Positions 2,834 to 29,991 of a DNA stretch of 64,000 nt are shown piece after piece. Source of the DNA: Halobacteriales archaeon QH_8_64_26 (GTDB lineage Archaea > Halobacteriota > Halobacteria > Halobacteriales > Halococcaceae). The stretch lies in contig PXRA01000045.1 in the NCBI GenBank assembly GCA_003021725.1, positions 21,704 through 85,703 on the forward strand, read 5' to 3'. The notes under the pieces are model-generated. The model ran no database searches. It was given only the letters and a program-made list of their open reading frames with translations, and was not told the DNA's origin. Both the position numbers and the translations under genes were made by a program. The number at the start of each line of letters is the position of its first letter. The first letter of the stretch is position 1.

Positions 2834-3415
2834 GTGACCGACGCCGATCTCGGCCGAGGGGCCGACATCGACGAAGGAGCGACCATCGGCTACCCCTACA
2901 GCGAGGACGCCGGGCCGGCGGTGATCGGTGCGAACGCACGGATCCGTGCGGGCACCATCGTCTACGGCGACACCAAGATCGGCGCGGACTTCGTGACCGG
3001 TCACGACGGGCTCGTCCGCGAGCACACCACGATCGGCGAGGCGGTCGCCGTGGGGACGAAGACCGTAATCGACGGCCGAAGCGAGATCGGCTCGAACGTG
3101 AGCTTCCAGACCGGGGCCTACGTACCGACGCACACGACGATCGGAAGCCACGTCTTCATCGGTCCTCGGGCAGTGCTCACGAACGATATGCACCCGGTTC
3201 GCGTCGAGTACGACCCCGCCGGCCCGGTACTCGACGATCACGTCACGATCGGGGCCAACGCCACCGTGCTACCGGGAATCACCGTCGGCGAGGGATCGTT
3301 CGTCGCCGCCGGGGCGGTCGTCACCGACGACGTCCCACCCGAGACCCTCGCTATCGGCGCGCCCGCCACCCACCGACCGTTGCCGGAGGAACTCCGGGGA
3401 GGGAACGACCTGTGA
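2834..3415 (+). CDS. Hexapeptide-repeat acyltransferase (WbpD-like UDP-sugar N-acetyltransferase), GTG start
   Basis: Left-handed beta-helix hexapeptides (IGANARIRAGTIVYGDTKIGADF, VTIGANATVLPGITVGEGSFVAAGAVVTDDVPPETLAIGAPA); overlaps the aminotransferase start. Confidence 0.8.
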   Translation: MTDADLGRGADIDEGATIGYPYSEDAGPAVIGANARIRAGTIVYGDTKIGADFVTGHDGLVREHTTIGEAVAVGTKTVIDGRSEIGSNVSFQTGAYVPTHTTIGSHVFIGPRAVLTNDMHPVRVEYDPAGPVLDDHVTIGANATVLPGITVGEGSFVAAGAVVTDDVPPETLAIGAPATHRPLPEELRGGNDL

Positions 3416-4512
3416 TCCCGATCGCGAACCCGGAGTTCGGCGACCGGGAGCAAGCAGCGATCGCCGACGTGCTCGATAGCGGTCGCGTGGCCGATGGTCC
3501 GGTCGTCAGGGAGTTCGAAGCCGAGTTCGCCGAGTTCTGTGGCGCTTCACACGGGGTGGCGACGACCAACGGGACCACGGCGCTGCATACCGCCTTCGAG
3601 GCCCTCGATATCGGCGAGGACGACGTCGTCGTTACTTCCCCGCTCTCGTTTATCGCGAGCGCGAACGCCGTCCGCTTCGCCGGGGCGACCCCGGTCTTCG
3701 CCGACGTTGACCTCTCGACCTACAATCTCGACCCTCACTCGACCGAGAAGCTGATCCAGGAGCACGACGCGGATGCGATCCTCGCGGTGCATCTCTTCGG
3801 GCTCCCCGCGGATATGGACGAGTTCCGCGAGATCGCTGACGCACACGACTGTGCGCTGATCGAGGACGCTGCCCAGGCTCACGGCGCGGCCGTCGGGGGT
3901 TCGCGGGCCGGAACGCTCGGTGATGCCGCCTGCTTTTCGTTTTACCCGACGAAGAACATGACGACCGGCGAGGGTGGGATGATCACGACCGACAGGGAAG
4001 ACGTCGCGAAGCGCGCGGCGAGTTTCGTCAATCACGGTCGCGTCGAGGACCAGCCGGCGTACGAACACATTCGAGTTGGTCAGAACTACCGGATGACGAG
4101 TGTGCTCGGGGCGATCGGCCGCGTCCAACTCGACCGTCTCCCGGCGTACAACGAGCGCCGGAGAGCGAACGCCGCCCGCCTTACCGAGGGTCTCGCTCCC
4201 AACGAGGGTATCACGACGCCCGTCGAACCGCCCGACCGCCATCACGTCTACCACCAGTATACGATCCGCTGTGGGGACCGCGACGCGCTCGCCGAGCACC
4301 TGGAGGCGGAGGGCGTTGGAAGCGCCGTCTACTATCCGAAGCCGATCCACCACCAACCGCCCTACGAGGAAAGCGTGGCGACGGCCCCGGCCGCCGAGTA
4401 CGCCGCCGGGAGCGTGCTCTCCCTCCCGGTTCACCCCGGAGTGAGCGAGGCGGACGTCGAGAGAGTGATCGACGCGGTCGATAGTTTCTACACCACTGAC
4501 GGGGGGCGGTGA
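3412..4512 (+). CDS. DegT/DnrJ/EryC1/StrS family sugar aminotransferase (WbpE-like)
   Basis: GVATTNGTTALHTAFEALDIGEDDVVVTSPLSFIASANAV, IEDAAQAHGA, FSFYPTKNMTTGEGGMITT (PLP lysine region), NYRMTSVLGAIG. Confidence 0.92.
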   Translation: MIPIANPEFGDREQAAIADVLDSGRVADGPVVREFEAEFAEFCGASHGVATTNGTTALHTAFEALDIGEDDVVVTSPLSFIASANAVRFAGATPVFADVDLSTYNLDPHSTEKLIQEHDADAILAVHLFGLPADMDEFREIADAHDCALIEDAAQAHGAAVGGSRAGTLGDAACFSFYPTKNMTTGEGGMITTDREDVAKRAASFVNHGRVEDQPAYEHIRVGQNYRMTSVLGAIGRVQLDRLPAYNERRRANAARLTEGLAPNEGITTPVEPPDRHHVYHQYTIRCGDRDALAEHLEAEGVGSAVYYPKPIHHQPPYEESVATAPAAEYAAGSVLSLPVHPGVSEADVERVIDAVDSFYTTDGGR

Positions 4513-4513
4513 C

Positions 4514-5509
4514 GTGGCAATAGCGGACTCACTCAGGGCCGGCGTGATCGGCGTCGGCAGCATGGGCCAACACCACGCGCGGGTCTACGAGGAACTACCC
4601 GACGCCGAGTTGGTCGGCGTGGCCGACGCCGACGCCGACCGCGCAAACGAGGTCGCCGCCCGCCAGGGCGTCGAGGCCTACCCGCGTGACGCTCTCCTCG
4701 GAGCCGTCGATCTCGCCTCGATCGCGGTCCCGACCGAATACCACTACGAACTCGCCCGCGCGTGTATCGAGCGCGGGGTCGACGTCCTCGTCGAGGAGCC
4801 CTTCGTCGCCGACCCCGAGCAGGGACGGACGTTGCTCGAACTCGCGGACGAACGCGACGCCCTGATCGGGGTCGGCCACGTCGAACGATACAACCCTGCC
4901 GTCGCGGCCGCTCGCGAGGTACTCGCCGACGCCGAGATCGTCGCCGCCGACGCCAGGCGGCTGGGGCCGCCCCTCGACCGCGATATCGCCGACAGCGCGG
5001 TACTCGATCTGATGATCCACGACATCGACGTGATCCTCTCGCTCGTCGGCAAGGAGATCGAGACGGTGAACGCACTCGGCACGCGTGAGAACCGATACAT
5101 CGACGCCCAGATGGGATTCGCCGATAGCACGGTCGCGAGCCTCACTGCGAGCCGTGTGACCCAGAAGAAAGTACGCGAGCTTTCGATCACCGCAGCCGAC
5201 TGCTGGATCACGGTCGATTACCTCGATCAGTCGGTCGAAGTGCATCGCGGCTCCTCGCCGGAGTACATCGAGCGGGACGGTGAGGTGCGCTACCGCCACG
5301 AGGGGATCGTCGAGCGCCCGCTGGTCGAAAGCGGCGAACCCTTAGGGCGCGAACTCGCCGCCTTCCTGCGCGCGGTTCGCGAGCGGCGGCCGCCGGACGT
5401 TTCCGCCGCGGACGGCCTAGCCGCCCTGCAGGTCGCCGAACGGATCGAGGAACTGGCTTCACGATCGCGGGACCGACCCAACACCCAACCGACTTCGATA
5501 CACCGATGA
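4514..5509 (+). CDS. Gfo/Idh/MocA family oxidoreductase (WbpB-like)
   Basis: AGVIGVGSMGQHHARVYEELPDAELVGVADAD Rossmann start; dinucleotide-binding and central catalytic regions (VEEPFVADPEQG, DLMIHDIDVILSLVG). Confidence 0.88.
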   Translation: MAIADSLRAGVIGVGSMGQHHARVYEELPDAELVGVADADADRANEVAARQGVEAYPRDALLGAVDLASIAVPTEYHYELARACIERGVDVLVEEPFVADPEQGRTLLELADERDALIGVGHVERYNPAVAAAREVLADAEIVAADARRLGPPLDRDIADSAVLDLMIHDIDVILSLVGKEIETVNALGTRENRYIDAQMGFADSTVASLTASRVTQKKVRELSITAADCWITVDYLDQSVEVHRGSSPEYIERDGEVRYRHEGIVERPLVESGEPLGRELAAFLRAVRERRPPDVSAADGLAALQVAERIEELASRSRDRPNTQPTSIHR

Positions 5510-6894
5510 ACGCGGACGAACGCGACCCCCGAACCGAGACGGTATCGCTATACGATAGCTCCCGCCCGCCCGACGAGCAGCGCCGAGCGTTCACCGAGGG
5601 TCGGATCCCCGTCGCGGTCTACGGTCTCGGGAAGATGGGACTGCCCCTGGCGACGGTCTACGCCGAGACCACGACCAACACGATCGGCGTCGACCTCTCC
5701 CCGGAGGTCGTCGCGGCGGTCGAGCGCGGCGAGACCCACGCCGTGCGCGAACCCGGGCTCGATACGCTGCTCGCCGAGACGATCGAATCGGGGGCGCTCT
5801 CGGCGTGCGCCGACGGTCCCGGGGCGGCCGCCGAGGCCCGTGTCCACGTGATCATCGTTCCGACGCCGATCGACGACGACAGCACGCCCGATCTCTCGGC
5901 GCTCGAGGCCGTCTGTGAGGATATCGCGAGCGGCCTCGCGCCCGGCGATCTGGTGCTCGTCGAATGTACGGTCCCGCCGAAGACCTGTCGGGAGGTCGTC
6001 CGCCCGCTTCTCGCCGAGAAGAGTGGGCTCGAACCTGAGGAATTCGGCCTCGCGTTCTGTCCGGAACGGACCTCCAGTGGCCGGGCGATCGAGGACATCC
6101 GGGGCGCGTACCCGAAGGTAGTGGGCGGGGTCGATCCCGAAAGCACCCGGGCGGCGGCGCTCGTCTACGAGGCGATTAACGATCGTGGGGTGCTCACTGT
6201 CACCGACGCGACGACCGCCGAAGCGGTAAAAGTCTTCGAAGGGGTTTATCGCGACGTCAACATCGCGCTTGCGAACGAACTCGCCCGCTTTACCGACGAG
6301 TTGGACATAGACGTCACCGAGGCGATCGAGGTCGCGAACACCTTGCCCGTCTGTGATATTCATACGCCCGGCATCGGCGTCGGGGGCCACTGCATTCCCT
6401 ACTATCCCTACTTCCTGATCCGGGGCTTCGAGGCCGACGCGCCCCTTCTGGGTACGGCCCGGGCGGTCAACGACTCGATGCCCGCCTTCGCCGTCTCGAA
6501 ACTCGGCGAGGAGTTCGCCGCCGAGGGCAGGGAGTTAGCGGGCGAGACGGTTCTCGTGCTCGGGCTCACCTACCGGCCGGCGGTCGAGGAGACCACCGCG
6601 ACCCCCGCCGGCCCGCTGGTCGACGGGCTCCGCGAAGCGGGTGCCGAGGTGCTCGCGACCGATCCGATCCTCCCGCCCGAGGCGATCGAAGAGTTCGGTG
6701 CCGAAGCGATTTCCTTGGAGAGCGCCACCGATCGAGAAGTCGACGCCGCCGTACTCGTCACCGCCCACGAGGAATTCGAGGGGATCGACTGGGCGGGCTT
6801 CGATCCGCTGATCGTGATCGACGGTCGGAACGCACTGGAACTCGGAGGAACGAACCACCGGGTCTATACCATCGGCAGCGGACATACCGAATAG
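5506..6894 (+). CDS. Nucleotide sugar dehydrogenase (UDP-GlcNAc/UDP-ManNAc 6-dehydrogenase family; WbpA/WecC-like)
   Basis: VAVYGLGKMGLPLATVYAETTTNTIGVDLSPEVV, VECTVPPKT, GVGGHCIPYYPYFLI catalytic Cys motif, LGLTYRPAVEETTATPA. Confidence 0.92.
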   Translation: MNADERDPRTETVSLYDSSRPPDEQRRAFTEGRIPVAVYGLGKMGLPLATVYAETTTNTIGVDLSPEVVAAVERGETHAVREPGLDTLLAETIESGALSACADGPGAAAEARVHVIIVPTPIDDDSTPDLSALEAVCEDIASGLAPGDLVLVECTVPPKTCREVVRPLLAEKSGLEPEEFGLAFCPERTSSGRAIEDIRGAYPKVVGGVDPESTRAAALVYEAINDRGVLTVTDATTAEAVKVFEGVYRDVNIALANELARFTDELDIDVTEAIEVANTLPVCDIHTPGIGVGGHCIPYYPYFLIRGFEADAPLLGTARAVNDSMPAFAVSKLGEEFAAEGRELAGETVLVLGLTYRPAVEETTATPAGPLVDGLREAGAEVLATDPILPPEAIEEFGAEAISLESATDREVDAAVLVTAHEEFEGIDWAGFDPLIVIDGRNALELGGTNHRVYTIGSGHTE

Positions 6895-8181
6895 ATGTAC
6901 GAGGGGAAGACGATCGGCGTCGTCGTGCCCGCTTACAACGAGGCGGGACTGGTCGGCGGCGTGATCGAGACGATGCCCGCCTTCGTCGATCGGGTGTACG
7001 TCGTCGACGATAGCTCGACCGACGATACCTGGGCGGAAGTGACCCACTATGCCGCGGCGGCCAACGAACGCCGGAACGCGGAGAGCCCGCTCGCCGACGG
7101 CGGTACGTCGGGGTTCGTCGTCCCGATCCGCCACGAGGAAAATCGCGGCCCCGGCGGCGCGCGCAAGACCGGCTACGCCCGCGCGCTCGCCGACGAGATA
7201 GACGTAGTAGCGACGATGGACGCCGACGGACAGATGGACCCCGCCTACCTCGATCGGATCGTCGCCCCGGTTGTGTCCGGCCGGGTGGCCTACGCGAAGG
7301 GTACGCGGCTCAAAAGCCGGAAGTTCTGGCGCGAGATGCCGCCCTTCCGTCTGTTCGGGAACTTACTCCTCACCTTTCTGACGAAAGTCGCCAGTGGCTA
7401 CTGGGGAATGACCGACCCACAGAACGGCTACACCGCGATCTCCAAGGATGCGCTCGCGACCATCGGGATCGAGACGCTCTATGACGACTACGGGTACTTG
7501 AACGACGTGCTTACCTCGCTCAACGTCGATTCGCGGCGGATCGCGGACGTCTCCCACCCGGCTCGCTACGGCACCGAACACAGCGGCATCCAGTACTCGA
7601 CGTTCGTTCCCTCGCTTTCGAGGGTGTTGTTCCGGAACTTCTGTCGGCGATTACAGCGTCGTTACCTCCTGCTCGATTTCCATCCGCTCGCCTTTCTCTA
7701 TGGCCTCGGAGCGCTCGGCCTCGCAGGGAGCGCGCTCTCGGCGGGCGCTGCGGTGTACGCGGCGCTGTCCTCGGAGTCGCCCTCAGTGCTCTCTCCGCCT
7801 GCTTCGAGCACACGACGATCGGCGGTCGACGGGGGCTCGGTCGCCGATGTCGACGCTGGTCCCTCCCTCGATTCCGGCTCCAGTCCCGACTCCGGCCCCG
7901 AGTCCATGTCGAGTCCCGGGTCGGCGGCCGGGACCGGGAACTCGAAAACCCGATCGACGACCGCCCGCTGTCTCGCTACGCTCGAAGCGTTCCTGTTCGG
8001 GGCCTGTGTCCTCGCGCTCGCGATCGCCTTCGACGTTCGCGCGAACGAGGACCTCGTAGTGCGAATCGAGGACGCGGTGGCCGGCGGTCGATCGTCCGAT
8101 CTCCGGCCTGACCGTCCGGGCGACCGTACCGACGAGAACAGGGACGGAACCGACGGGACGACGGGGGCCGGTGATCGATGA
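6895..8181 (+). CDS. Glycosyltransferase family 2 with C-terminal TM pair and an intervening low-complexity insertion
   Basis: IGVVVPAYNEAGLVGGVIETMPAFVDRVYVVDDSSTDDTW; TM helices near 7690-7770 and 7975-8035 separated by a Ser/Pro/Asp/Gly-rich stretch. Confidence 0.88.
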   Translation: MYEGKTIGVVVPAYNEAGLVGGVIETMPAFVDRVYVVDDSSTDDTWAEVTHYAAAANERRNAESPLADGGTSGFVVPIRHEENRGPGGARKTGYARALADEIDVVATMDADGQMDPAYLDRIVAPVVSGRVAYAKGTRLKSRKFWREMPPFRLFGNLLLTFLTKVASGYWGMTDPQNGYTAISKDALATIGIETLYDDYGYLNDVLTSLNVDSRRIADVSHPARYGTEHSGIQYSTFVPSLSRVLFRNFCRRLQRRYLLLDFHPLAFLYGLGALGLAGSALSAGAAVYAALSSESPSVLSPPASSTRRSAVDGGSVADVDAGPSLDSGSSPDSGPESMSSPGSAAGTGNSKTRSTTARCLATLEAFLFGACVLALAIAFDVRANEDLVVRIEDAVAGGRSSDLRPDRPGDRTDENRDGTDGTTGAGDR

Positions 8182-9323
8182 AGGTACTCTCGATCGTCGG
8201 CGCTCGGCCGCAGTTCATCAAGGCCTTCCCGCTCTCGGCGGCGCTCCGGGGGGATCACGAGGAGGTCCTCGTTCACACCGGCCAGCACTACGATACCGGG
8301 CTCTCGGAGGTCTTCTTCGAGGAACTCGCGATCCCCGAACCGGACCACCACCTCGGGGTCGGGTCGGATACGCATGGCCGTCAGACCGGTCGGATGATGA
8401 TCGAGCTCGAAGCGCTCTGCGAGCGGGAGAGTCCCGACGCGGTGCTGGTCTACGGCGATACCAACTCGACGCTCGCGGGCGCGATAGTCGCGGCCAAGGG
8501 CGACCCCCTTCTCTGTCACGTCGAAGCCGGCCTCCGGAGTTACAATCGTGCGATGCCCGAGGAGATCAATCGCGTGCTTACCGATCACGTCTCCGACGTG
8601 CTCTGTGTCCCCACCGAGCGCGCGCGCTCGAACCTCGCGAGCGAGGGGATCGCCGAGGGCGTTTCGGTGACCGGCGACGTGATGTACGACGCCATCCGGT
8701 GGGCCCGCGAGCGCGCGGCCGACACCGCCGAGATCCTCGCGGAACTCGGTGTAAGCGAGGGCGAATACGTGCTCGCAACGGTCCACCGGGCGGGCAACAC
8801 CGACGATCGGGGCAGGTTGGAAGCGATCCTCCGAACGCTTTCGGGGCTTTCGAAACCGGTCGTCCTCCCGGCCCACCCGCGGACGGTAGCGCGGATCGAG
8901 GACTTCGGGATCGAGGACGCCACTGCCGGCATCAGGCTGATCGAGCCCGTGGGGTATCTCGATTTCGTCCGGCTGCTCGACGGTGCCGACCGGGTCGCGA
9001 CCGATTCGGGGGGCGTGCAAAAAGAGGCCTTCTTCCTCGATACGCCCTGTGTCACCCTGCGTGAAGAAACCGAGTGGGTCGAGACCGTCGAGGCCGGCTG
9101 GAACAGCTTAGTGGGTACGGACCCCGAGGCGATCCGAGCGGCCCTGATCGGCGACCGTGACCGGCCCCCCAAACCGAGCCTGTACGGCGATGGCACCGCC
9201 GCCGAAGCGATCGTCGCCGCACTCGCCGAAGCCGTGGGCGGGTCGGGAACCGAAACCGGAGCTGAATCCGGGGCTGGATCCGAAATCGAACCCGAATCCG
9301 GGACCGCGGGCGAGGAGCGATGA
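8178..9323 (+). CDS. wecB: Non-hydrolysing UDP-N-acetylglucosamine 2-epimerase family (WecB/WbpI-like)
   Basis: MKVLSIVGARPQFIKAFPLSAALRG, VHTGQHYDTGLSEVFFEEL, VYGDTNSTLAGAIVAAK, HVEAGLRSYNRAMPEEINRVLTDHVSD, ATVHRAGNTDD, TDSGGVQKEAFFLDTPCVTLREETEWVETVEAGWN. Confidence 0.93.
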   Translation: MKVLSIVGARPQFIKAFPLSAALRGDHEEVLVHTGQHYDTGLSEVFFEELAIPEPDHHLGVGSDTHGRQTGRMMIELEALCERESPDAVLVYGDTNSTLAGAIVAAKGDPLLCHVEAGLRSYNRAMPEEINRVLTDHVSDVLCVPTERARSNLASEGIAEGVSVTGDVMYDAIRWARERAADTAEILAELGVSEGEYVLATVHRAGNTDDRGRLEAILRTLSGLSKPVVLPAHPRTVARIEDFGIEDATAGIRLIEPVGYLDFVRLLDGADRVATDSGGVQKEAFFLDTPCVTLREETEWVETVEAGWNSLVGTDPEAIRAALIGDRDRPPKPSLYGDGTAAEAIVAALAEAVGGSGTETGAESGAGSEIEPESGTAGEER

Positions 9324-10393
9324 CCGATACCTCCGGTTCCGAAGCGACGACCGGGACCGACGTCCCGGCTCCCGAGTTCGAGGGCTCCTTCGCGCTCTGT
9401 CTGACCCACGACGTCGATCGCCCCTACAAGACCTACCAGTCGCTGTTCTACGCGCTTGGTGAACGCCGACTCGCCCACCTCGAGAGCCTCCTGCCTCGAG
9501 TCAATCCCTACTGGCAGTTCGAGGAGATAATGGCCATAGAGGAGCACCTCGGAGTCCGGTCGGCGTTTTACTTCCTCGACGGGGAGTACCTCCTCTCGCG
9601 GCCGCCCCGCGAGTGGCTCAGCCCCTTCTACTGGCTCGAGTGGCTCGGCGGGTACGACCCGACTGCACCGGCGATCGCACAGGTCGTCCGCGCGCTCGAC
9701 GACGGCGGCTGGGAGGTCGGCCTGCACGGCTCCTATGGCACCCACCGCGATCCCGAGCGTCTCGCCGCGGAGAAACGGAAACTCGAAGCGATTCTCGGCC
9801 ACGACCTCCAGGGCGGTCGCCAGCACTACCTCCGATTGAGCGACCCGCCCGCGGAGACCTGGGGACAGTATCGGGATCTCGGCCTCTCCTACGACGCGAG
9901 CCTCGGGTCGAGTACCGAGTACGGCTTTCGACACGGCTATGACTTGCTTGCACCGTTCGAGGACGAATTTCGAGTGTTTCCGCTCACGCTCATGGAGGTC
10001 GCCCTGGAGAACGCTCCGAGCGCCGGCGACGCTGACCCCGAGGGATCGAGCGTTCGGGTCGGTAGCGATGAAAAGGACGGTCATCGAGACGGCTCTCGAC
10101 GCGGGATCGATGTCAAGGCGGCCTGGCGTGAGTGCGAGCGACTCCTGGAGGAAGCGGCTGCGAACGAGGCGGTGATGACCGTGCTCTGGCACCCACGGTA
10201 TTTCAGCACCGAGGACTTTCCGGGCTATCGCGAACTCTACCGGCGGCTGATCGAGCGCGCGCTCTCGATGGGAGCCTGGGTCGGCCCGCCCGGCGACCTC
10301 TATCGGACGATCGACCACGATCGCGTCTCCGAGCACGACGAGCGGAGGGACGTGGCGGGGACGACCGGGCGCGAGACGGGGGAGAGCCGATGA
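9320..10393 (+). CDS. Polysaccharide deacetylase-like (NodB-type) protein
   Basis: FALCLTHDVDRPYKTYQS (HDVD motif), YFLDGEYLL, GWEVGLHGSYGTH (HxxxxH-like metal motif), TVLWHPRYFS. Confidence 0.75.
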   Translation: MTDTSGSEATTGTDVPAPEFEGSFALCLTHDVDRPYKTYQSLFYALGERRLAHLESLLPRVNPYWQFEEIMAIEEHLGVRSAFYFLDGEYLLSRPPREWLSPFYWLEWLGGYDPTAPAIAQVVRALDDGGWEVGLHGSYGTHRDPERLAAEKRKLEAILGHDLQGGRQHYLRLSDPPAETWGQYRDLGLSYDASLGSSTEYGFRHGYDLLAPFEDEFRVFPLTLMEVALENAPSAGDADPEGSSVRVGSDEKDGHRDGSRRGIDVKAAWRECERLLEEAAANEAVMTVLWHPRYFSTEDFPGYRELYRRLIERALSMGAWVGPPGDLYRTIDHDRVSEHDERRDVAGTTGRETGESR

Positions 10394-10549
10394 CCGACTG
10401 TGGGACGGCGACCGATCGCCGCCCTATTGCGTCCGAGGAATCCAGGGGATTCGAGACCCGACGGGACGAACTCGGTGTCCGAAACAACAGGACCTTGTTT
10501 CGCTCCCCATCGATGTGGAGACGACTTTCCAGGACGTGATTTCAGTACT

Positions 10550-11608
10550 ATGGAACTAAAACGACTTACGCTCGAGGAGTGGGCCGATGCCCTCCCCGAC
10601 TCGGGGTTCGAGGTCTTTCACACTGCCCCGGCCCTATCGGTGCTTGAGAGCCACACGGCCGGCGAGCTGCACCTACTCGGGGGATTCAACGGCGACCAGC
10701 CGGTAGCCTTGTTCCCCCTGTTCGTCCGGCGGGGTCCGCTGGGGTCGACGATGTGCTCCTCGCCGCCGCCGGGGTTCAACATCCCGCATCTCGGGCCGAT
10801 CCTCATGCCCCAGAGCCCGAAGCGGCGCAAACGCGAGAAACAGAACAACGAGTTCGCCGAAAAAGTGATAGGAACGCTCGACGCCGACGGTTCCCGCACG
10901 CTCTTTCGGGCGGTGGGAGCGCCGACCTACGGCGACCCGCGGCCCTACCGATGGGCCGGTTTCGACGTCGGCGCGGCGTTTACCTACCGGCTCCCGGTCG
11001 AGGACTCGCCCGATGACCTGCTGAGTTCGTTCAGCAAGAGCCTCCGGCGGGAGATCCGCGACGGCGGGGACGCCGACGTCGTGGTCTCGCGGGAGGGTAT
11101 CGAGGCCGCCGAAGCCGTCTACTGGCACACCGCTGCGCGCTATGCCGAACAGGGCGAGGAGATGGGTTCGAGCTGGGAGTACGTTCGCGATCTGCTCGGC
11201 GCGCTCGACGAGGAGGGCCGGTATCGGGTCTACACCGCGGAAACCGCCGAGGGTCGATTCCTCGGCGGGATCATCGTGCTCTACTCGAACGACTGTGCGT
11301 ACTACTGGCTCGGCGGCGCTCGTATCACCCACGACGGCGTGAGCGTCAACAGTCTACTGCACTGGCACGTCATCCGCGACGTCGCGGAGGCCGGGACCGA
11401 GGACGGAGGTAATGATAGGAGCGGAAGCGAGGACGGCCCGATCGCGTCGGTCGAGTGCTACGACCTCGTCGGCGCGAACACCGAACGGCTCTGCCAGTAC
11501 AAGGCGAAGTTCGGTGCCGATCTCGCCCACTACTACACGATCGAGTCCGCCGGCCCGCGGATGACCCTCGCGAAGACGGCCTACGAGCGGGTCAACTCGT
11601 TGTTGTGA
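10550..11608 (+). CDS. FemAB-like / GNAT-fold (BioF2-like acetyltransferase) protein
   Basis: VFHTAPALSVLESHTAGELHLLGGFNGDQPVALFPLFVRRGPLG, SFSKSLRREIRDG, GGIIVLYSNDCAYYWLGGA, YDLVGANTERLCQYKAKFGADL; ATG at 10550 is the likely start. Confidence 0.78.
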   Translation: MELKRLTLEEWADALPDSGFEVFHTAPALSVLESHTAGELHLLGGFNGDQPVALFPLFVRRGPLGSTMCSSPPPGFNIPHLGPILMPQSPKRRKREKQNNEFAEKVIGTLDADGSRTLFRAVGAPTYGDPRPYRWAGFDVGAAFTYRLPVEDSPDDLLSSFSKSLRREIRDGGDADVVVSREGIEAAEAVYWHTAARYAEQGEEMGSSWEYVRDLLGALDEEGRYRVYTAETAEGRFLGGIIVLYSNDCAYYWLGGARITHDGVSVNSLLHWHVIRDVAEAGTEDGGNDRSGSEDGPIASVECYDLVGANTERLCQYKAKFGADLAHYYTIESAGPRMTLAKTAYERVNSLL

Positions 11609-12997: not shown

Positions 12998-14083
12998 TCA
13001 GGCCGGTCGGAGCAAGGGCTGTTCGGCGAGGCCCTCGATCCGCTCCGGGACGGCTCCATTGAGCGCGACGTCAACGATCAACTCGGTGAGGTTCGTCGTA
13101 TCGGCCATGTAGGCGTCGCGACGCTCGCGCCAGATCCCGGGAACCGAATCGTCGGCGACGAGGTCGATCGCTCTCTCGATGACTGCATCGAAATCCGCGA
13201 TGTTGTAGATGAGGTCGTTGCGTTCGAGTTCTACGAAGTTGCCCATGTCCGCCTCGCCGACGAAGCTGTTCGAGCGGATCGCCGGCGTCCCCAGTAGGGC
13301 GGCTTCGGTGACCATCGTCTGGGTGTCGGCCACTAGAAGGTGGGCTTCGGCGAGCGCGTCGTGCATGAGGCCGGGATGGAGGTCGAAGGGACGGGCATCT
13401 ACGTCCTCGAAGTCCATCGAGCGCCCCTCATCGGAGACGAAGACGGTCGCGTGCTCGGCGAGGCGTTCGATCAACGCGCGGCGGCGCTCGGGGGTGAGTC
13501 CCGAGTGGCTCACGTCGTGATGGGAGCCGAAGGCGTTCAGACGGAGGACAACATACTTCTTTCCGGGACCGACCCCCAGGGCCTCCCGGACGTCGACCTG
13601 GGGCTCGTAGACAGCGGGGTGGAGATAGGCACACTCCTTGAACCCCCGGAAACGGTAGTGGTTCGCCCCCAGATCCTTCCTGAAGGCGTGTGGCGTGAGT
13701 AGGAGCTCCGCGAAGGGCCGGGAGATGGCGTGATCGAGGCCGGTCGGCTCCGAATCGAGCAGCAGGACCACCGGAGCGCCCGCGAGCACGCCGGCATGCG
13801 CGGAGTACGCCCCCATCCCGAAGATCAGATCGGGGTCGTACCGGCGGACCTGCTTTGTGATCTCTACGTAGTGACCGGGCAGGGACCTGAACAGGGACCA
13901 CTTCGTCGTCTCACAGCCCCCGTAGATCCGGTAGGGCAGGTCGTAGTACTCGAGCAAAGCCACTGTACAGCCGTAATCCCGGCCGAGAACCAGTACGTCG
14001 TGGCCTCGCTCGCGTAACTCCTGGACGGCGTGTCTGTAGAGATGCACATGGGCCGGCGTGTTCGTAAAGAAGAGGTACTTCAC
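12998..14083 (-). CDS. DUF354 family protein (GT-B-like)
   Basis: MKYLFFTNTPAHVHLYRHAVQELRERGHDVLVLGRDYG..., DTQTMVTEAALLGTPAIRSNSFVGEADMGNFVELE. Confidence 0.85.
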   Translation of the reverse strand: MKYLFFTNTPAHVHLYRHAVQELRERGHDVLVLGRDYGCTVALLEYYDLPYRIYGGCETTKWSLFRSLPGHYVEITKQVRRYDPDLIFGMGAYSAHAGVLAGAPVVLLLDSEPTGLDHAISRPFAELLLTPHAFRKDLGANHYRFRGFKECAYLHPAVYEPQVDVREALGVGPGKKYVVLRLNAFGSHHDVSHSGLTPERRRALIERLAEHATVFVSDEGRSMDFEDVDARPFDLHPGLMHDALAEAHLLVADTQTMVTEAALLGTPAIRSNSFVGEADMGNFVELERNDLIYNIADFDAVIERAIDLVADDSVPGIWRERRDAYMADTTNLTELIVDVALNGAVPERIEGLAEQPLLRPA

Positions 14084-14230: not shown

Positions 14231-15505
14231 TCACGGGCGTTCGGCGGCCACGGTTTCGTAGAGCTCGGTCAGTCGGGGAATGACCCGTTCCCAAGTGTAG
14301 CGCTCGGCGGTCTCTGCGTTGTGCCGGCCCATTTGCCGTACGTCCTCGGGCGCAGCGACGAGCGCTTCGAGCGCGTCGGCGAGCGCCTCGGAGTCGTGTG
14401 GCGAGACGAGCCGTCCACCCTTCTCATCGATGAGATCCGGCACGCCCCCGACCGCCGTCGCAACGACCGCGTTCCCGCCGGCCATCCCTTCGAGCACGCC
14501 GATCGGTAGCCCCTCGGCGTACGCCGGCAGGACGTAGATCGACGCTCCACAGAGCACCTCGCGTTTCTCCGCTTCCGGGACGAACCCCAGGTACGAGACC
14601 TCGGGGTAGCGCTCCGCGAGGTCCTCGGCATAATGATCGAGCGGCCCGCTGCCCGCGATACTCACCCGGGAGTCCGCGCCGCTATCGAGCAGTCGGGCGA
14701 TCGCGTCGGTGAACTCCCTGGTCCCCTTTCGGGGGACGTGGTTCGCGACGAAGACGATATGGGGTGGCTCGGCGTCGAAGCGTGGTTCGTACTCCTCGGT
14801 GTCGATGGCGTTCGGCAGCACGACCGTCTTTCCTGCCGGCAGGCGCGTCGAAAGCGCTTTTTTCCAGTACGGCGAGAGAACGATGATTCTCGCGCTCGCC
14901 GCGAAGACGACGCGCTGGAGCACTCGGAGGGGAGCGGAGGCTTCGGCGACGAAACGATCGAAGGTCGGCCCGTGGACGTGTAGTACGACCGGCCGACCCC
15001 AGACGTAGCGCCCCAGCAGGACGTAGGCGGACTTCCGGAGGAAGCTGTACTGCTCGGCGGTGTGGACGTGAACCACGTCGGGCCGATCGTGGAAGGGAAA
15101 GCGAAGCGCATCGAGAAGCGCCCCGAGCGCGCCGCGGGCGAACCGAACGGGGCCCGACCCCGGCGGGGCGGCCGTGTCGTAGACCGCAACCGCGACCGAT
15201 TCGGGGAGCCGTCCCCGGAGTTCCTCGATGTAGCGGGCGATCCCGCCCGTCGCCTGTACTGGTCCCACCAGCAGAACTCGCAACGCCCCTCGCTTCCTCG
15301 GTCGGCCGCCCCGACCGGGCTCCGTCCCGGTTCCCTTTGATCCCCGATCGCTTTCGGCGCTCTCGTCGCTCCCGCCGCTCTCGACCGCTTTACGTGGTTC
15401 GACGTCCTCGGTGCTCGCCGAGAGAAACCGGCGAGCGGCTCCCACAGCGATTCGAAGAAGCGATCGAGCGCTCGCAGCGCGACGGGCGATGGTGGGGACC
15501 CACAT
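14231..15505 (-). CDS. Glycosyltransferase family 4 (GT-B)
   Basis: LRVLLVGPVQATGGIARYIEELRGRLP, DVVHVHTAEQYSFLRKSAYVLL, VSIAGSGPLDHYAEDLAERYPEVSYLGFVPEAEK, EGLPIGVLEGMAGGNAVVATAVGGVPDLI. Confidence 0.93.
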   Translation of the reverse strand: MWVPTIARRAASARSLLRIAVGAARRFLSASTEDVEPRKAVESGGSDESAESDRGSKGTGTEPGRGGRPRKRGALRVLLVGPVQATGGIARYIEELRGRLPESVAVAVYDTAAPPGSGPVRFARGALGALLDALRFPFHDRPDVVHVHTAEQYSFLRKSAYVLLGRYVWGRPVVLHVHGPTFDRFVAEASAPLRVLQRVVFAASARIIVLSPYWKKALSTRLPAGKTVVLPNAIDTEEYEPRFDAEPPHIVFVANHVPRKGTREFTDAIARLLDSGADSRVSIAGSGPLDHYAEDLAERYPEVSYLGFVPEAEKREVLCGASIYVLPAYAEGLPIGVLEGMAGGNAVVATAVGGVPDLIDEKGGRLVSPHDSEALADALEALVAAPEDVRQMGRHNAETAERYTWERVIPRLTELYETVAAERP

Positions 15506-15653: not shown

Positions 15654-17657
15654 ATGAGCCACGCCGGTACAGCGAATCGAGCGGACAAGCGGTACAAGGC
15701 AGTGCTTACCATCGGCTACCTCGCGGTCGCCGTGGCGGTACTCGGCGCGTACCTCTCGCCGGCGACCGACTACGAGATCAACATCTACGCGGCGACGCCG
15801 GCGGTGTTCTGGCTCGGGCTGGGCGTCGCGATGACGATCTCGCTGTTCGTCTCCTTCTATGCGCCGCGGGGCTACCTGAGCACCGCGAGCCTCGTGCTGG
15901 GCGGGAGCGGCATGCTCGCCGCGGCCTCGATCCCCTTGATGCGGGGGTACTACTTCATCGGGACGGGCGATTCGTTGACCCACCTGGGGTGGGTACGGGA
16001 CATCATGGAGGGATCGTTAGGGGCCTTCGGTCTGTTCTATCCGGGCCTCCATACCGTCTCGATTTTCTTCCATCGTGTCGTCGGCTTCTCGACCAACCGA
16101 TCGGTCATGTTCTTTGTGGTTTGTATGATCCTCGTGTTATTCGTATTCACTCCCCTTTGCGTTCGGGCGATCACCGGCCAGGACGGCGCGATGCTCATCG
16201 GCGTGTTCGCCGCCTTCCTCGTCCTGCCGCTCAACCAGATCGCAACGCATTACTCCCCACACCCGATCACCGACGTGATCTTCTTCTCGCCGCTCCTGCT
16301 TTACTTGCTCGTCCAGTTCCTGCTCGCGATCCCCGACTCGGGCTCGCGGCCGGGCGGGCTCAGCTCGATCCCGACGGTATCAGTACTCCTCGCGCTCGCC
16401 TCGATAGCCACGATCGTCTATCACCCCCAGCAGGCCGCGAACGTGATCATCCTCTTCGTCACCATCTCGATCGTCCAGTTCGCCTCCCGCCGCTATGGCC
16501 TCGGCGGCCGGATCCGGGCCCACCGGACGCTCTATAGTCAGACGACCTTCATCTCGGTCGCTTTCATGCTCTGGGCGGGCACTCGCGAGACCTTCGTCCG
16601 GACCTTCGGGACGATCCTCGGCGAGGTCGCCGGGATCTTCCTCCAGAGCAGCGACGACGCCGCACAGATCGTCCAGCAACGCGGGGGCTCGCTGGCGGCC
16701 ATCGGCGCCAGCGTCACCGAGATATTCCTCAAGCTCTTTTTCGTCTCGGCGCTGTTTGCCGCCCTCGTCGCGTTGCTCATGCTGATCAGCCTGCTCGGGG
16801 ACAACGAGCAGTTCGACGCCGATACCACCGGGTTGCTCCGCTATTTCTCGGTCGGGCTGATCGTCCTGGTTCCCTACTCGTTTGCCTTCTTCATCGGCGT
16901 TGCGTCGAACCTCTTTTTCAGGAATCTCGCCTTCATTATGGTGATCACGACGATCTTGGGCGCGATCGCGATCCACCGGTACGTCGCTGCCCTCTCGGAG
17001 ATGCTCGCGCCCGAACGGATCCGGCTCGCGACGGTCCTGGTACTCGGATTCATGCTCGTACTCTCGGCCGCGGTGCTCTACCCATCGCCGTATATCTTCC
17101 AGGCGAGTGGCCACGTGAGCGACAACCGGGTCAGTGGCTACCGGACGGCCTTCGAACACCAGAACCGGAGCGTCGAGATCTTCGGCGTCCGGGAGGGACC
17201 GTGGCGCTTCAGGGACGCGATCGTCGGCGTCGAGGGCATCGAGTCGAGTCGTAACGACCAACAAGGGTTCTACGGCGACAACATCACGCGTATACGTAAC
17301 GTCCGGTTGGGCGAGGAGTCCGGGGACGATCGGTACTTCCTCTATACGGGCGCGGACGTCATCCGGGAAATCGAGGTGTACAACGAGTTGCGCTTCAGCG
17401 AACGCCAGTTCGACTCCCTGTCGCGCCAGCCGGGCGTCCATCGGGTCCAGGCCAGCGATACGGTCTATCTCCACTACGTCGATAGCCTCCCCAACAACTC
17501 CACGAGCCCGACTCGACGCACGGCCCCGCCGGCTGACGTCGGGACGAGCGCGGACGCCGCCGAACCGGAACCGTCGATCGGGACGGCCACGCCGACCGAC
17601 CCGCCCGGCGTCGCGAGCGCCGCCGCTGAGGCCCTGCGGTTACCCGGTGTCCGGTGA
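15654..17657 (+). CDS. Large polytopic membrane protein of unknown function (paralog of 48879..50732); possible GT-C/polymerase-type glycan enzyme
   Basis: Many hydrophobic segments; GDSLTHLGWVRDIMEGSLGAFGLFYPGLHT; conserved C-terminal domain SGHVSDNRVSGYRTAFEHQ...DRYFLYTGADVIREIEVYNELRFSERQFDSLSRQPGVHRVQ. Confidence 0.85.
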   Translation: MSHAGTANRADKRYKAVLTIGYLAVAVAVLGAYLSPATDYEINIYAATPAVFWLGLGVAMTISLFVSFYAPRGYLSTASLVLGGSGMLAAASIPLMRGYYFIGTGDSLTHLGWVRDIMEGSLGAFGLFYPGLHTVSIFFHRVVGFSTNRSVMFFVVCMILVLFVFTPLCVRAITGQDGAMLIGVFAAFLVLPLNQIATHYSPHPITDVIFFSPLLLYLLVQFLLAIPDSGSRPGGLSSIPTVSVLLALASIATIVYHPQQAANVIILFVTISIVQFASRRYGLGGRIRAHRTLYSQTTFISVAFMLWAGTRETFVRTFGTILGEVAGIFLQSSDDAAQIVQQRGGSLAAIGASVTEIFLKLFFVSALFAALVALLMLISLLGDNEQFDADTTGLLRYFSVGLIVLVPYSFAFFIGVASNLFFRNLAFIMVITTILGAIAIHRYVAALSEMLAPERIRLATVLVLGFMLVLSAAVLYPSPYIFQASGHVSDNRVSGYRTAFEHQNRSVEIFGVREGPWRFRDAIVGVEGIESSRNDQQGFYGDNITRIRNVRLGEESGDDRYFLYTGADVIREIEVYNELRFSERQFDSLSRQPGVHRVQASDTVYLHYVDSLPNNSTSPTRRTAPPADVGTSADAAEPEPSIGTATPTDPPGVASAAAEALRLPGVR

Positions 17658-17915
17658 ACCGGTATCGGAGCCGGGCGAACCGACTACCGGGAACGTGGCC
17701 GACGGTTATCCCGGTCTCGACCGTAGCGATCGTTCTCCTCGATTCCTTGTCCCTTTCCCACGAACGGGTTCATAGCGCTCGGTTCTGATCGACGGCACCG
17801 TTGAAATATCGGAACGTATGAGTACAACCAGTCACAGCGTACCGACAGGCGATCATCGCCCCGGCCGGCACACTCTCACGGAGCGGCTGGGGTGGCTCTC
17901 CGACAGGTACTCATC

Positions 17916-19601
17916 ATGGACGATACGACGACCTCCGATACCGATCGAACGGATGGAGCCGAGGGAACCGACGGAACCGACGCGACGAACCGAGCGTTCG
18001 TGCTGGGACTCGACGGCATCCCCTGGAACCTGATCAAGCGATGGGCGAGCGCAGGCGAGCTGCCACACTTCGCCGAACTCCTCGAAAACGGGGCGGCCGG
18101 GACCTTAGAGAGCACGCGCCCGGCGAACACGGCCCTTGCCTGGCCCTCGATCGCGACGGGGGTCTGGCCGGACAAACACGGGGTTTACTCCTTCCGGGGG
18201 TTGCTTCCGGAGTACCGCCACCGCCTCAACACGGGCAATGACGTCTCCCGACCCGCGCTCTGGGAGATGGCCTCGCCCGCGGTCGCGGGCAACGTCCCGA
18301 TGACCTACCCCGCAAGCGAGATCGACGGGACGATGGTCACCGGGATGCTCTCGCCCGCGATCGACGAGCGGGCGACCCATCCCCCCGAGTTTCACCGGGA
18401 ACTAAAAAACCGAATCCCGGAGTACCGGACCGGTCTGGACTGGAACAAGTATCGGGATCGTCCCGGGGAGTTCCCCCCGGCGCTCGCCTCGCTACTGAGT
18501 GCGCGCAAGCGACTGATGCGCCTGCTGATGGAACGGGACTGGCGACTCTTTTTCTTCGTCTACACCGAGCCCGATCGCCTCCAGCACCTGCTGTGGGACG
18601 AGGAGGTCTTACTCGATCACTACAAGGACCTCGATGCGATCCTCGGGGAGGTCCTCGCCCAAGCCGACGAGGGGACGACGGTCTATGTGGTCTCCGATCA
18701 CGGCTTCGCCCCGATCGAGAAATACGTCTACGTGAACACGATTCTGCGCGAGGAGGGATTCCTCTTCGAGAAGGACGAGACCGGGACCCGGAGTACCCTC
18801 TCGCGGGTCGGCCTGAGTAAATCCCGGGTCATGAACCTGCTCTCGCGGGTCGGTATCGACGACGACGATCTCGTCTCCGTGCTCCCGCGCTCGCTCGTCG
18901 AGCGGGTTGCCGATCGAATTCCGGGGGGCCACGAACTCCATGACGTCGATTACACCCGCACCGAGGCGTTCGTTCACGGCTCGGGGAACCTCTACATCAA
19001 CGACGCCGAGCGCTTCGCTACCGGTCCGGTCGATCCCGCCGACCGTGAAGCGAAAAAGCGCGCGGTCGCCGAAGCCCTTATCAGGGTCACCGACCCCGCA
19101 ACCGGCGAGAAAGCGTTGATCGTCCACGACGGTGCTGACCTGTTCCCAACCGACGACCGCTCGCCCGATCTCGTCCTCGAAGCCGCCGAGGGCTACAAAC
19201 CCTCGCTCGGGCTCTACGACACGCGCTTCTCCGCAGAGGGGGTCCACGACGCCGATCACCACCCCGAAGGGATCTTCTTCGCCTACGGACCGGACGTCGC
19301 GTCCGGCTCCCGCCCTGCGGATGCCGCCGTCGTCGACGTCGCCCCGACCGTGCTTCACGGGCTCGGAGAGGCGATCCCACACGATACCGACGGGCGCGTG
19401 CTGAGCGAGGTCTTCGCCGACGGATCGCCGACCGCCGAGCGACCGATAGCAACCCGCGAGTACGCCGCCGAGGCGAGGACCGGCGATCCCGCCGACGGTT
19501 CGGGCTCCGGTCCCGGCCGCGGCGAGGCCGACGAAGCGGTGGCCGAGGAGGACTTCGAGGACGTCGAAAACCGGCTTCGCGGGCTTGGCTACCTCGAGTA
19601 G
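17916..19601 (+). CDS. Alkaline phosphatase superfamily protein (phosphodiesterase/nucleotide pyrophosphatase-like)
   Basis: FVLGLDGIPWNLIKRWASAGELPHFAELLENGAAGTLESTRPANTALAWPSIATGVWPDKHGVYSF; VVSDHGFAPIEKYVYVN; DADHHPEGIFFAYGP; C-terminus ENRLRGLGYLE. Confidence 0.87.
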   Translation: MDDTTTSDTDRTDGAEGTDGTDATNRAFVLGLDGIPWNLIKRWASAGELPHFAELLENGAAGTLESTRPANTALAWPSIATGVWPDKHGVYSFRGLLPEYRHRLNTGNDVSRPALWEMASPAVAGNVPMTYPASEIDGTMVTGMLSPAIDERATHPPEFHRELKNRIPEYRTGLDWNKYRDRPGEFPPALASLLSARKRLMRLLMERDWRLFFFVYTEPDRLQHLLWDEEVLLDHYKDLDAILGEVLAQADEGTTVYVVSDHGFAPIEKYVYVNTILREEGFLFEKDETGTRSTLSRVGLSKSRVMNLLSRVGIDDDDLVSVLPRSLVERVADRIPGGHELHDVDYTRTEAFVHGSGNLYINDAERFATGPVDPADREAKKRAVAEALIRVTDPATGEKALIVHDGADLFPTDDRSPDLVLEAAEGYKPSLGLYDTRFSAEGVHDADHHPEGIFFAYGPDVASGSRPADAAVVDVAPTVLHGLGEAIPHDTDGRVLSEVFADGSPTAERPIATREYAAEARTGDPADGSGSGPGRGEADEAVAEEDFEDVENRLRGLGYLE

Positions 19602-27345: not shown

Positions 27346-29991
27346 TCACAGGATGTAGAACAGCGGGAATAAGAACAGCCAGACGATATCGACGAAGTGC
27401 CAGTAGAGCCCGAAGTACTCGATCGGGCGCTCGTCCTCCAGGTAGGCTCCTCGGGTCGCCCGTGTGAGCATGTAGATCGCGATCACCAGGCCGGCGATGA
27501 CGTGCAGCGCGTGCAGTCCGGTCGTCAGGAAGAACGTCGAGGTCCGGACGTTCGTCGAAAGCAACAGGCCCTCGTGGAACAGTTCCTGCCACTCGATTCC
27601 TTTGTTGAGGAGGAAGCCGATCCCGAGCGCGATAGTGAGGCCGAGACTCGCGACGACGCCCCTCTTGGACCCTTTCTCGGCGGCGACCATCGCGAGCACG
27701 ACGCTGAAACTGCTCGTCAGCAGGAGATAGGTGTTGACCAATCCCGGTAGCGGGTCGTGGGGGACCGGCTCCCAGCCGACCCAGCCCTGTGCGACCCGGA
27801 TGAACACGTACGAGCCGATGAACGCGCCGAAGAGCACGACGTCGGATGCTAAAAATATCCACACGCCGGTCTTTACGTTCTCGATGCCGTCGAACGGCCA
27901 ACTCTCCCCGAAAGGCCCCGAGGGACCGGTAAAGCGCTCCCTGGTAAGCCCGAACAACGAGCCCCCCGTCAGTAGCGCGCCGATCCCCGTGAGACCCGCA
28001 TAGAAAGTTCCCGCGAAGCCGTCGGGGAACGACGCGCCCTGGAAGCCCGAGGCCCCCAACAGGAGCACGAACGCGCCGACCCCGATCGCCAGCGGCCAGA
28101 TGCTCGCGTGATCCTCGCCTTCGCCTTCGTCTGTGATCCGCTCGTGGCCGGGGGCGTGGTCGGTGGCCTGATCGCTAACGGTGGCCACGCCGCCGTCGGT
28201 GAGTTCACCGCCGTCCGCCGCCGTCCCGCTACCGATCGCCGATCGTTCGTCCTCCGCGAGGAAGTCGATCGACCCGCTCCGGTAGCTCGGTATCCCGGGG
28301 AAATTTTCGAGGGGTGGTGGCGAGGGGACCGTCCACTCGGCGGTCGTCGAGTACGCCCAGGGATTGTCGCCGGCCTCCTCGCCGGTAAAGAGGCTCGCCG
28401 TGAGGTTGTAGAACATGAGGAGGAAGGAAGCCCCGAGCACGAACGCGCCGATCGTCGCGAGCTGGTGCCAGGGGGTCAGACCCGGCGGGTAGTCGAACAC
28501 CCGTCGGGGGGTCTCCCAGGCGAGGAACATCGGGAAATACAGCAGATTGAACCCGACGAAGTAGGCCGCGAAGTGAACCTTCCCCAGGAACTCGTCGTAC
28601 ATCTTCCCTGTTATCTTCGGGTACCAGTAGTACAACCCGCCGATCAGCGCGGTGACACCGCCGACCATTACGTAATGGAAGTGTGCGACCACCCAGTAGG
28701 TCCCCCGGAACTCGTAATCGAGCACCACCGCACCTAGGAAGACCCCGGTGATGCCGCCGACGATAAAGAGGACCAGCGCCCCGAAGGTAAAGAGGAAGGG
28801 GGTCACGAAGCGGATGCGCCCTTTGATCATCGTATAGATCAGCGAGAAGACCATCAAATCGAACGGCAGGGAGATGCCGATCGTGGTCGCCATGAAGAGG
28901 GTCTTGACCTGGAGGTTGATGCTGGTGAGAAACATGTGATGCATCCAGACGCCGAAGCTCTGGAGGGCAACGAGCACCATCGATGCGATGAACCACTTCC
29001 TGCCCACGAGTCGGCGGCCGGTGAAGGTCTGGAAGGTCTCTGCCATCACGCCGAGCGCGGGGAAGAAGACGATGTAGACCTCGGGGTGGCCGAAGAACCA
29101 AAAGAGGTGTGCCCACAGCAGCGAGCCGCCCTCGGTGAAGGAGAAGTAGGTCGTGCCCAAGAGGCGATCCGAGGAGAGGATCATGAGCGCGGCGAGCAGC
29201 GCCGCGAAGGCAAAGAGCATCATCCAAACGGTGAGCAGAATCGTCCAGGTAAAGAGGGGTAAGCGCCTGAGGGTCAGGCCCTCCGCGCGCATCCGGTGCA
29301 TGGTCGTCAAGAAGTTCACCGAGGAGACGGTGATCGAGACGACGAAGAGCAACAGCGCGAGGATCGCAGTCGTACTGCCGACCTCAGGGGTATACATGGG
29401 CAGGTCGAGCGGGGCGTACATCGTCCACCCGCCGGCGAAGGACGCACCTTGGAAGAACGAAACGCCCAGTAGCAGCCCCGAGGCGGCGTACAGCCAGTAC
29501 GACAGGGCATTGAGCCGGGGGAAGGCGAGGTCCTTCGCGCCGATCTGGAGCGGGACGATGTAGTTCGCGAAGCCGAAGGCAAACGGCGAGAGGAACCAGA
29601 AGACCATGATCAGCCCGTGGATCGAGACGGCTTGATTGTATGCGCCGGCGCTCAGAAGTCCCTGACCGGCCGTCCAGAGTTGGAGGCGCATAAGCAACGC
29701 GAGCACGCCCCCGAAGATCAGGAAAAACAGCGCCGTCACGATGTAGAGTACCCCGACGTCCTTGTGGTTCGTCGTCACGAGGTACCGGCGTACCGACCCG
29801 AGCGGCGGGAGCCCGTGGCCGTCCTCGGTATCGGTCCCCGCCCCCGAGGGCGTCGCGAACTCACTGTCGGTCGTCGCGTGCCCGCCATCGGCTTTCGTGT
29901 GCCTGCCGTCGGTTCTCCTGGACCCGTCATCCGTCGTTTTCGCTTCGTCGTCTCCGGTACTGTCGTTCATCGGTTGGCCGTCGGTCGTCAT
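27346..29991 (-). CDS. Fused heme-copper oxidase subunit I + III (CoxA-CoxC)
   Basis: Subunit I: HPEVYIVFFPALGVMAETFQTFTG, WMHHMFLTS, VAHFHYVMVGG; subunit III-like C-terminus (GVWIFLASDVVLFGAFIGSYVFIR ... GLHALHVIAGLVIAIYM ... YWHFVDIVWLFLFPLFYIL). Confidence 0.95.
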   Translation of the reverse strand: MTTDGQPMNDSTGDDEAKTTDDGSRRTDGRHTKADGGHATTDSEFATPSGAGTDTEDGHGLPPLGSVRRYLVTTNHKDVGVLYIVTALFFLIFGGVLALLMRLQLWTAGQGLLSAGAYNQAVSIHGLIMVFWFLSPFAFGFANYIVPLQIGAKDLAFPRLNALSYWLYAASGLLLGVSFFQGASFAGGWTMYAPLDLPMYTPEVGSTTAILALLLFVVSITVSSVNFLTTMHRMRAEGLTLRRLPLFTWTILLTVWMMLFAFAALLAALMILSSDRLLGTTYFSFTEGGSLLWAHLFWFFGHPEVYIVFFPALGVMAETFQTFTGRRLVGRKWFIASMVLVALQSFGVWMHHMFLTSINLQVKTLFMATTIGISLPFDLMVFSLIYTMIKGRIRFVTPFLFTFGALVLFIVGGITGVFLGAVVLDYEFRGTYWVVAHFHYVMVGGVTALIGGLYYWYPKITGKMYDEFLGKVHFAAYFVGFNLLYFPMFLAWETPRRVFDYPPGLTPWHQLATIGAFVLGASFLLMFYNLTASLFTGEEAGDNPWAYSTTAEWTVPSPPPLENFPGIPSYRSGSIDFLAEDERSAIGSGTAADGGELTDGGVATVSDQATDHAPGHERITDEGEGEDHASIWPLAIGVGAFVLLLGASGFQGASFPDGFAGTFYAGLTGIGALLTGGSLFGLTRERFTGPSGPFGESWPFDGIENVKTGVWIFLASDVVLFGAFIGSYVFIRVAQGWVGWEPVPHDPLPGLVNTYLLLTSSFSVVLAMVAAEKGSKRGVVASLGLTIALGIGFLLNKGIEWQELFHEGLLLSTNVRTSTFFLTTGLHALHVIAGLVIAIYMLTRATRGAYLEDERPIEYFGLYWHFVDIVWLFLFPLFYIL

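Follow-up and report, generated by a model that had tools for sequence, protein, structure and literature searches.

Paralogous polytopic proteins of a haloarchaeon as probable GT-CA-type transferases of a DUF6541-related family

Introduction

STT3, a GT-CA enzyme, transfers oligosaccharides as complete units, and oligosaccharyltransferases (OST) share a plan of 13 transmembrane (TM) helices in an N-in/C-out orientation with a C-terminal outer domain. AftA uses a lipid-phosphate monosaccharide donor, and we know of no GT-CA enzyme that polymerizes repeats. Lipid-phosphate monosaccharides are also used by GT83 and GT39 enzymes (PMC10920833, Table 1), and in GT-CA enzymes the catalytic Asp is situated at the apex of the first juxtamembrane helix (JM1), with phosphate bound by Lys or His (PimE paper, PMC12041525). 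In Haloferax, AglD attaches mannose to dolichyl phosphate (DolP), AglR helps it cross the membrane, and AglS transfers it (PMC3871713). In Haloarcula hispanica, DolP-GlcA made by AepG is the donor for an acidic exopolysaccharide (EPS) whose biosynthetic pathway is stated to be unknown (PMC9943897).

Here, we analyze a stretch of 64,000 nucleotides (the window) from Halobacteriales archaeon QH_8_64_26 (contig PXRA01000045.1, positions 21,704 to 85,703), in which an earlier note, made from the sequence alone, had paired two polytopic proteins and likened them to GT-C glycosyltransferases or polymerase/ligase-type enzymes. We conclude, with a probability of roughly 0.87, that the two proteins, P0001 and P0002, are paralogous GT-CA-type transferases from an uncharacterized, DUF6541-related archaeal family, with an outward-facing site and a lipid-linked donor.

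Results

The two proteins and their landmarks are as follows.

15654..17657, + strand: P0001, assigned to the GT-C family, 667 amino acids (aa), 13 predicted TM helices; landmarks are outer-face D106, H110, Y129-P130, H133, and H257 and the C-terminal outer domain
15966..16055, + strand: P0001 residues 105-134 (GDSLTHLGW...FYPGLHT), the putative loop of the catalytic Asp together with the first juxtamembrane helices
48879..50732, + strand: P0002, paralogue of P0001, 617 aa, same architecture, with D104, H108, H131, and H251

Both open reading frames (ORFs) begin with ATG and are separated by 31.2 kb, bearing out the spacing of about 31 kb and the shared plan first described for them. They align end to end over 622 aa (538 bits), with 47% of positions identical and 64% positive, indicating homology and not chance motif matches. 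The motifs quoted in the earlier note, namely PLCVxAITG, YHPQQAAN, and the C-terminal block SGHVSDxRxxGYxTAFxHQ...DRYFLxTxxDV...QFxSLxRQPGxHxVQ, recur in both proteins, as does the early Asp/His pair, which reads GDSLTHLGW in P0001 and GDGLTHVGW in P0002.

A search of the source genome with P0001 returned exactly two copies, P0001 and P0002, in an assembly that is 88% complete. Both paralogues also occur in related species: L003 and L004 are 76 to 79% identical to P0001, and L005, L006, and L008 cluster with P0002. P0001 and P0002 fall into separate clades that are sisters of one another, and both clades have a support of 1.0. The presence of orthologues of each copy in other species of the lineage indicates that the duplication is older than those species. 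A UvdE gene is located nearby in L005, L006, and L008 and in the P0002 locus of the window. In a related MAG (L012; PXSV01000071.1, 6257-8013), a family member is split over two frames by a frameshift or sequencing error.

Conservation was assessed in 46 sequences, reaching distant non-halobacterial relatives and numbered according to P0001. Residues E41, Y99, D106, Y129, P130, H133, H257, W307, and S478 are invariant (46/46), and R97 (45/46), H110 (44/46), and R423 (43/46) are nearly so; the T109 column holds threonine in 33 sequences, serine in 11, and other residues in 2. A YPxxH block (Y129, P130, and H133), just C-terminal to the Asp motif, is present in all 46, giving the family signature RGY-x(n)-D-x-x-[ST]-H ... 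YPxxH ... H. The initial proposal had been made to depend on the conservation of GDxLTHxGW in wider homologues, and the motif is kept, with D106 in 46 of 46 and H110 in 44 of 46.

Alignment-averaged hydropathy predicts 13 TM helices, a count read from a simple scan in which the weak segment at 135-153 is counted as juxtamembrane; by the positive-inside rule, the N terminus is then inside and the C-terminal domain outside. This count falls within the range of GT-C proteins (about 7 to 14 TM helices), and helices are likewise present in the structure models of both proteins. On the hydropathy topology, the conserved polar residues map to outer loops or their margins. D106 lies in an outer loop directly before helix 110-118, which corresponds to the Asp or Glu at the tip of JM1 in the extracytoplasmic loop of GT-CA enzymes. 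The TM number, orientation, and C-terminal outer domain resemble those of STT3, AglB, and PglB (GT66), although the C-terminal domain of the family is smaller. PimE- and ArnT-type enzymes have one TM helix before the catalytic loop, whereas the family is predicted to have two more.

The window pair has no match in Pfam at E ≤ 1, P0001 has none in NCBIfam, and when 27 family members were searched against solved structures by HMM, a single chance match resulted (E 2.6). Other members do reach known GT-C families: 2 of 19 distant members match Pfam PMT_2 (PF13231; best E 4.2e-7), and one haloarchaeal member matches archaeal STT3 (1.3e-4). When the 46-member family was compared by hhalign with archaeal PMT_2, STT3, MFS, and Wzy_C sets gathered for this analysis, probabilities were 97.1% for PMT_2 (score 95.7) and 90.1% for STT3 (score 62.7), as opposed to 0.8% for MFS and 0.3% for Wzy_C. 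The haloarchaeal subset alone gave weaker values (PMT_2, 62.8%; STT3, 23.1%). In the profile alignments, D106 shares a column with the catalytic Asp of PMT_2 ("DE") and of STT3 ("NDPWY"), and these profiles, together with the PF13231 matches, place the family in remote homology to known GT-C families.

AlphaFold models were built separately for P0001 and P0002, but their input alignments (10 and 11 sequences) overlap, such that the two models are not fully independent tests. Their confidence is modest (pLDDT, 57.8 and 62.0; pTM, 0.61 and 0.63). In Foldseek searches of the PDB, the best nine matches of the P0001 model are all GT-C proteins (AftA 8if8 at E 1.9e-4, STT3, DPY19, and AglB), as are the best twelve of the P0002 model (AftA at 3.8e-5, STT3, and PglB). 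The similarities are of low magnitude, with TM-scores of about 0.30 to 0.47 for AftA and OST-type chains and 0.24 for DPY19, and with large rmsd; at this level (pLDDT 58/62), a conserved GT-C structural module is recognizable in both models. The BFVD viral fold library returned no match below E 0.04. Fold ranking, the PMT_2 and STT3 profiles, the Asp column, and outer-face topology all support the original GT-C suggestion.

Two other assignments were tried and rejected. For MFS transporters, the hhalign probability is 0.8%, and transporter structures rank under the GT-C matches for both models, with Foldseek probabilities of <0.4; the confident match to an unrelated transporter family that would have spoken against the initial proposal did not appear. 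For the Wzy_C (O-antigen polymerase-ligase, PF04932) family, there is no Pfam match and an hhalign probability of 0.3%. The polymerase/ligase half of the earlier suggestion therefore survives in part: sequence comparison excludes an enzyme of the Wzy_C/O-antigen-ligase type, but such an activity in a GT-C frame is compatible with the data.

The family also differs from the GT-CA families that it most resembles. YPxxH is present in 46 of 46 members and in 0 of 30 PMT_2 sequences, and D..[ST]H is present in 42 of 46 members and in 1 of 30 PMT_2 sequences. Conversely, WW[DNE] occurs in 0 of 46 members, whereas WWD[YFWN] occurs in 26 of 30 archaeal STT3 sequences. The lack of the OST WWD motif in members and of YPxxH in PMT_2 indicates a GT-CA family of its own, with a relationship to DUF6541.

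Pfam DUF6541 (PF20176) is reached by 7 of 27 haloarchaeal members (best 8e-14) and by 3 of 19 distant members, some of them below the cutoff; the remaining 20 haloarchaeal members have no match. One member (L033) matches over residues 21-500, almost end to end with the domain, at 51.3 bits (cutoff, 29), and L024 scores 30.8 bits; other relatives fall below the cutoff. NCBI names a few homologues "DUF6541 family protein," and the DUF itself carries no functional assignment. The idea that the proteins form a new, unnamed family is thus right only in part, since members of their family reach a named domain. In the literature covered, DUF6541, HAH_1664 of the Haloarcula hispanica EPS cluster, and the old H. 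volcanii locus tags led to no functional paper, and neither biochemical nor genetic data were found.

Of 400 Halobacteria genomes searched with P0001, 264 contain relatives, as do 66 of 86 genera, and a 27-sequence profile detected divergent, mostly full-length relatives (about 580 to 650 aa) in 30 genomes that belong to the phylum but not to the window's order. Homologues include HVO_RS02745 (Haloferax volcanii, pHV4) and HFX_RS17805 (H. mediterranei, pHM500). The records inspected label homologues as hypothetical protein, as "DUF6541 family protein," and once, in Natronorubrum aibiense (L246; NZ_CP045491.1, 157372-159198), as "MFS transporter," which is very probably a misannotation.

The neighbors of the pair in the window are as follows.

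2834..3415, + strand: hexapeptide-repeat acyltransferase of the sugar-nucleotide set, WbpD-like (PF00132)
3412..4512, + strand: DegT/DnrJ aminotransferase, WbpE-like (PF01041)
4514..5509, + strand: Gfo/Idh/MocA oxidoreductase, WbpB-like (PF01408)
5506..6894, + strand: UDP-sugar 6-dehydrogenase, WbpA-like (PF03721/00984/03720)
6895..8181, + strand: GT2 glycosyltransferase (PF00535)
8178..9323, + strand: UDP-GlcNAc 2-epimerase, WbpI/WecB-like (PF02350)
9320..10393, + strand: polysaccharide deacetylase-like protein resembling H. mediterranei pHM500 HFX_RS17870 (350 bits); no Pfam match
10400..11608, + strand: GNAT-type acetyltransferase (Acetyltransf_6; PF13480)
12998..14083, - strand: DUF354 glycosyltransferase-like protein (PF04007)
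14231..15505, - strand: GT4 glycosyltransferase, divergent neighbor of P0001 (PF13692/PF00534)
17892..19601, + strand: type I phosphodiesterase/alkaline-phosphatase-like protein downstream of P0001, recurrent neighbor (PF01663)
38262..39539, + strand: GT4-type glycosyltransferase upstream of P0002 (PF00534)
39831..42362, + strand: right-handed beta-helix protein, recurrent neighbor (PF13229, weak)
43762..45324, - strand: sulfatase-superfamily protein near P0002 (PF00884)

The locus of P0001, described in the earlier note as a glycosyltransferase locus, encodes the sugar-nucleotide set and GT2, GT4, DUF354, GNAT, phosphodiesterase, and deacetylase-like proteins. The WbpA/B/E/D/I-like set is presumably a pathway to a di-N-acetylated uronic acid nucleotide, and a similar set lies close to the family homologue on H. 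mediterranei pHM500. Type I phosphodiesterase/alkaline-phosphatase-like genes (678..2384 and 17892..19601) bracket this locus. Upstream of the window on the same contig are two further large GT-C-like ORFs of 717 and 827 aa (L244; G000:C49:8844-10997 and 11776-14259), both of which match PMT_2, the longer also reaching DUF6541; the glycan island extends beyond the upstream edge of the window. Elsewhere in the window, an aldehyde ferredoxin oxidoreductase (56011..57602, - strand) is divided into two overlapping ORFs, N-terminal (56772..57602) and C-terminal (56011..56913), by a genomic frameshift or an assembly error, and an 881-aa ORF (27346..29991, - strand) fuses COX1 and COX3 domains and adjoins a COX2 gene.

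Family-wide neighborhoods were surveyed, as open frames and not as called genes, in 40 haloarchaeal loci and in 20 arbitrary control regions drawn from 10 of these genomes. Within about 9 kb, 31 of 40 loci have a Wzx-like flippase, and in 15 of 40 it is within 400 bp on the same strand. Beta-helix proteins (30/40), phosphodiesterases (24/40), DUF1616 (19/40), and Gfo/Idh proteins (17/40) are also recurrent, and each of these, like the flippase, is present in 0 of 20 controls. At least 2 of 11 glycan marker types occur in 16 of the first 20 loci (0 of 20 controls) and in 15 of 20 distant loci. In 36 of 40 loci, the family protein and the flippase have no further companion of at least 300 aa with at least 7 TM helices. 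Within the 64-kb window, there is no Wzx-like flippase, and of the two Polysacc_synt matches of the genome, one is on contig C103, close to the STT3 homologue, and the other on C8, so that linkage to a flippase is seen across the family but not at this locus.

Wzy_C is found in 43 of 101 Halobacteria genomes (and in 7 of 120 in a phylum-wide sample with few Halobacteria); where both it and a family locus were placed, by eye from lists, it sits away from the family locus, the nearest seen at about 26 kb. EpsG was not found in the 101 Halobacteria genomes.

Discussion

The most probable function of P0001, P0002, and their relatives is glycosyl transfer: the family very probably attaches sugars on the outer face of the membrane. 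In this mechanism, the donor would be a sugar linked to dolichyl phosphate or pyrophosphate and turned outward by a Wzx-like flippase, after which the enzyme would use this sugar, or else a short repeat, to extend a surface glycan. At the tip of the first juxtamembrane helix, the invariant Asp (P0001, D106; P0002, D104) is likely the catalytic base or an acceptor-binding residue. The outer-face residues H110, H133, and H257, with R97 and R423, probably bind the donor phosphate, by analogy with PimE, and the C-terminal outer domain probably helps bind the acceptor. The chemistry, donor, acceptor, and glycan product proposed for the family are inferred.

What is moved in each reaction could be one sugar or a repeat, and the present evidence gives single-sugar transfer about the same likelihood as a polymerase/ligase action. 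The similarity to PMT_2 and AftA favors the former, and the lack of another polytopic enzyme beside the flippase favors the latter.

In the first case, which we consider somewhat short of an even chance, the protein would perform an AglS-like last step, after a DolP-sugar synthase and a Wzx/AglR-like flippase, and add one sugar, for example a uronic acid, onto a pre-formed outer-face glycan. The AglD/AglR/AglS system of Haloferax is a precedent (PMC3871713), as is the DolP-GlcA donor made by AepG in Haloarcula hispanica (PMC9943897). AglS, likened here by function alone, is an outer-face transferase whose DolP-sugar is flipped by an AglR-like protein, paralleling the flippase neighbor in 31 of 40 loci. 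The 97% PMT_2 profile probability, with its shared Asp column, agrees with single-sugar transfer, as do AftA as the best fold match of both models and the WbpA/B/E/D/I-like set in the window locus. However, GT2 proteins, potential candidates for a DolP-sugar synthase, were detected in only 10 of 40 loci with two GT2 queries, and many loci hold genes expected for the assembly of oligosaccharide repeats.

In the second case, to which we assign a scarcely lower chance, the protein would be a polymerase or en-bloc transferase in the slot of Wzy or a ligase, joining flipped dolichyl-(pyro)phosphate repeats in a GT-CA frame. Flippases occur in 31 of 40 loci, 15 of them directly adjacent on the same strand, and in 36 of 40 the family protein and flippase are the sole large polytopic proteins. 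EpsG is absent from the 101 genomes of the class, Wzy_C (43 of the 101) lies elsewhere where both were placed, and STT3 offers the example of a GT-CA enzyme moving whole oligosaccharides. The family would thus occupy the same genomic slot, beside a Wzx-like flippase, as Wzy_C, to which it has no profile relationship (0.3%). Against this, the closest profile (PMT_2) and the top fold (AftA) both belong to users of lipid-phosphate monosaccharides, the OST WWD motif is missing from the 46 members, a GT-CA repeat polymerase would be without known precedent, and the separation of Wzy_C from the family was judged from lists and not computed. The narrower proposal that this GT-CA family is the Wzy equivalent, polymerizing flipped repeats in a haloarchaeal Wzx-type surface-polysaccharide pathway, is doubtful; if true, archaea would polymerize flipped repeats by an oligosaccharyltransferase/PMT-type enzyme instead of a Wzy-type enzyme.

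As for the acceptor, S-layer glycoproteins or archaellins are unlikely in comparison with a polysaccharide or glycolipid. The functional analogue AglS does modify the S-layer N-glycan (PMC3871713), but the recurrent beta-helix, phosphodiesterase, deacetylase, and sulfatase neighbors seem to fit an extracellular polysaccharide better, and the STT3 homologue of the genome is on another contig with one flippase. It is very improbable that the protein is a non-catalytic scaffold or accessory with a GT-C fold, like PIGU of the GPI transamidase, whose GT-C-like fold lies outside the glycosyltransferases (PMC12041525), or a transporter, as the N. aibiense label has it, since the Asp at the catalytic position and the outer-face His and Arg residues are invariant or nearly so across very divergent sequences, and MFS reaches 0.8% by profile and ranks under GT-C by fold (probability <0.4).

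These findings favor an interpretation of DUF6541, at least in part, as GT-C glycosyltransferases. In archaeal exopolysaccharide synthesis, the late steps on the outer face are not known, even where a donor such as DolP-GlcA has been demonstrated (PMC9943897). For such a step, the family offers a directly testable gene candidate and a predicted catalytic residue, with homologues in genetically tractable hosts. Since a flippase gene adjoins the family gene in many relatives, the family is a good candidate for a missing step in the assembly of the archaeal sugar coat.
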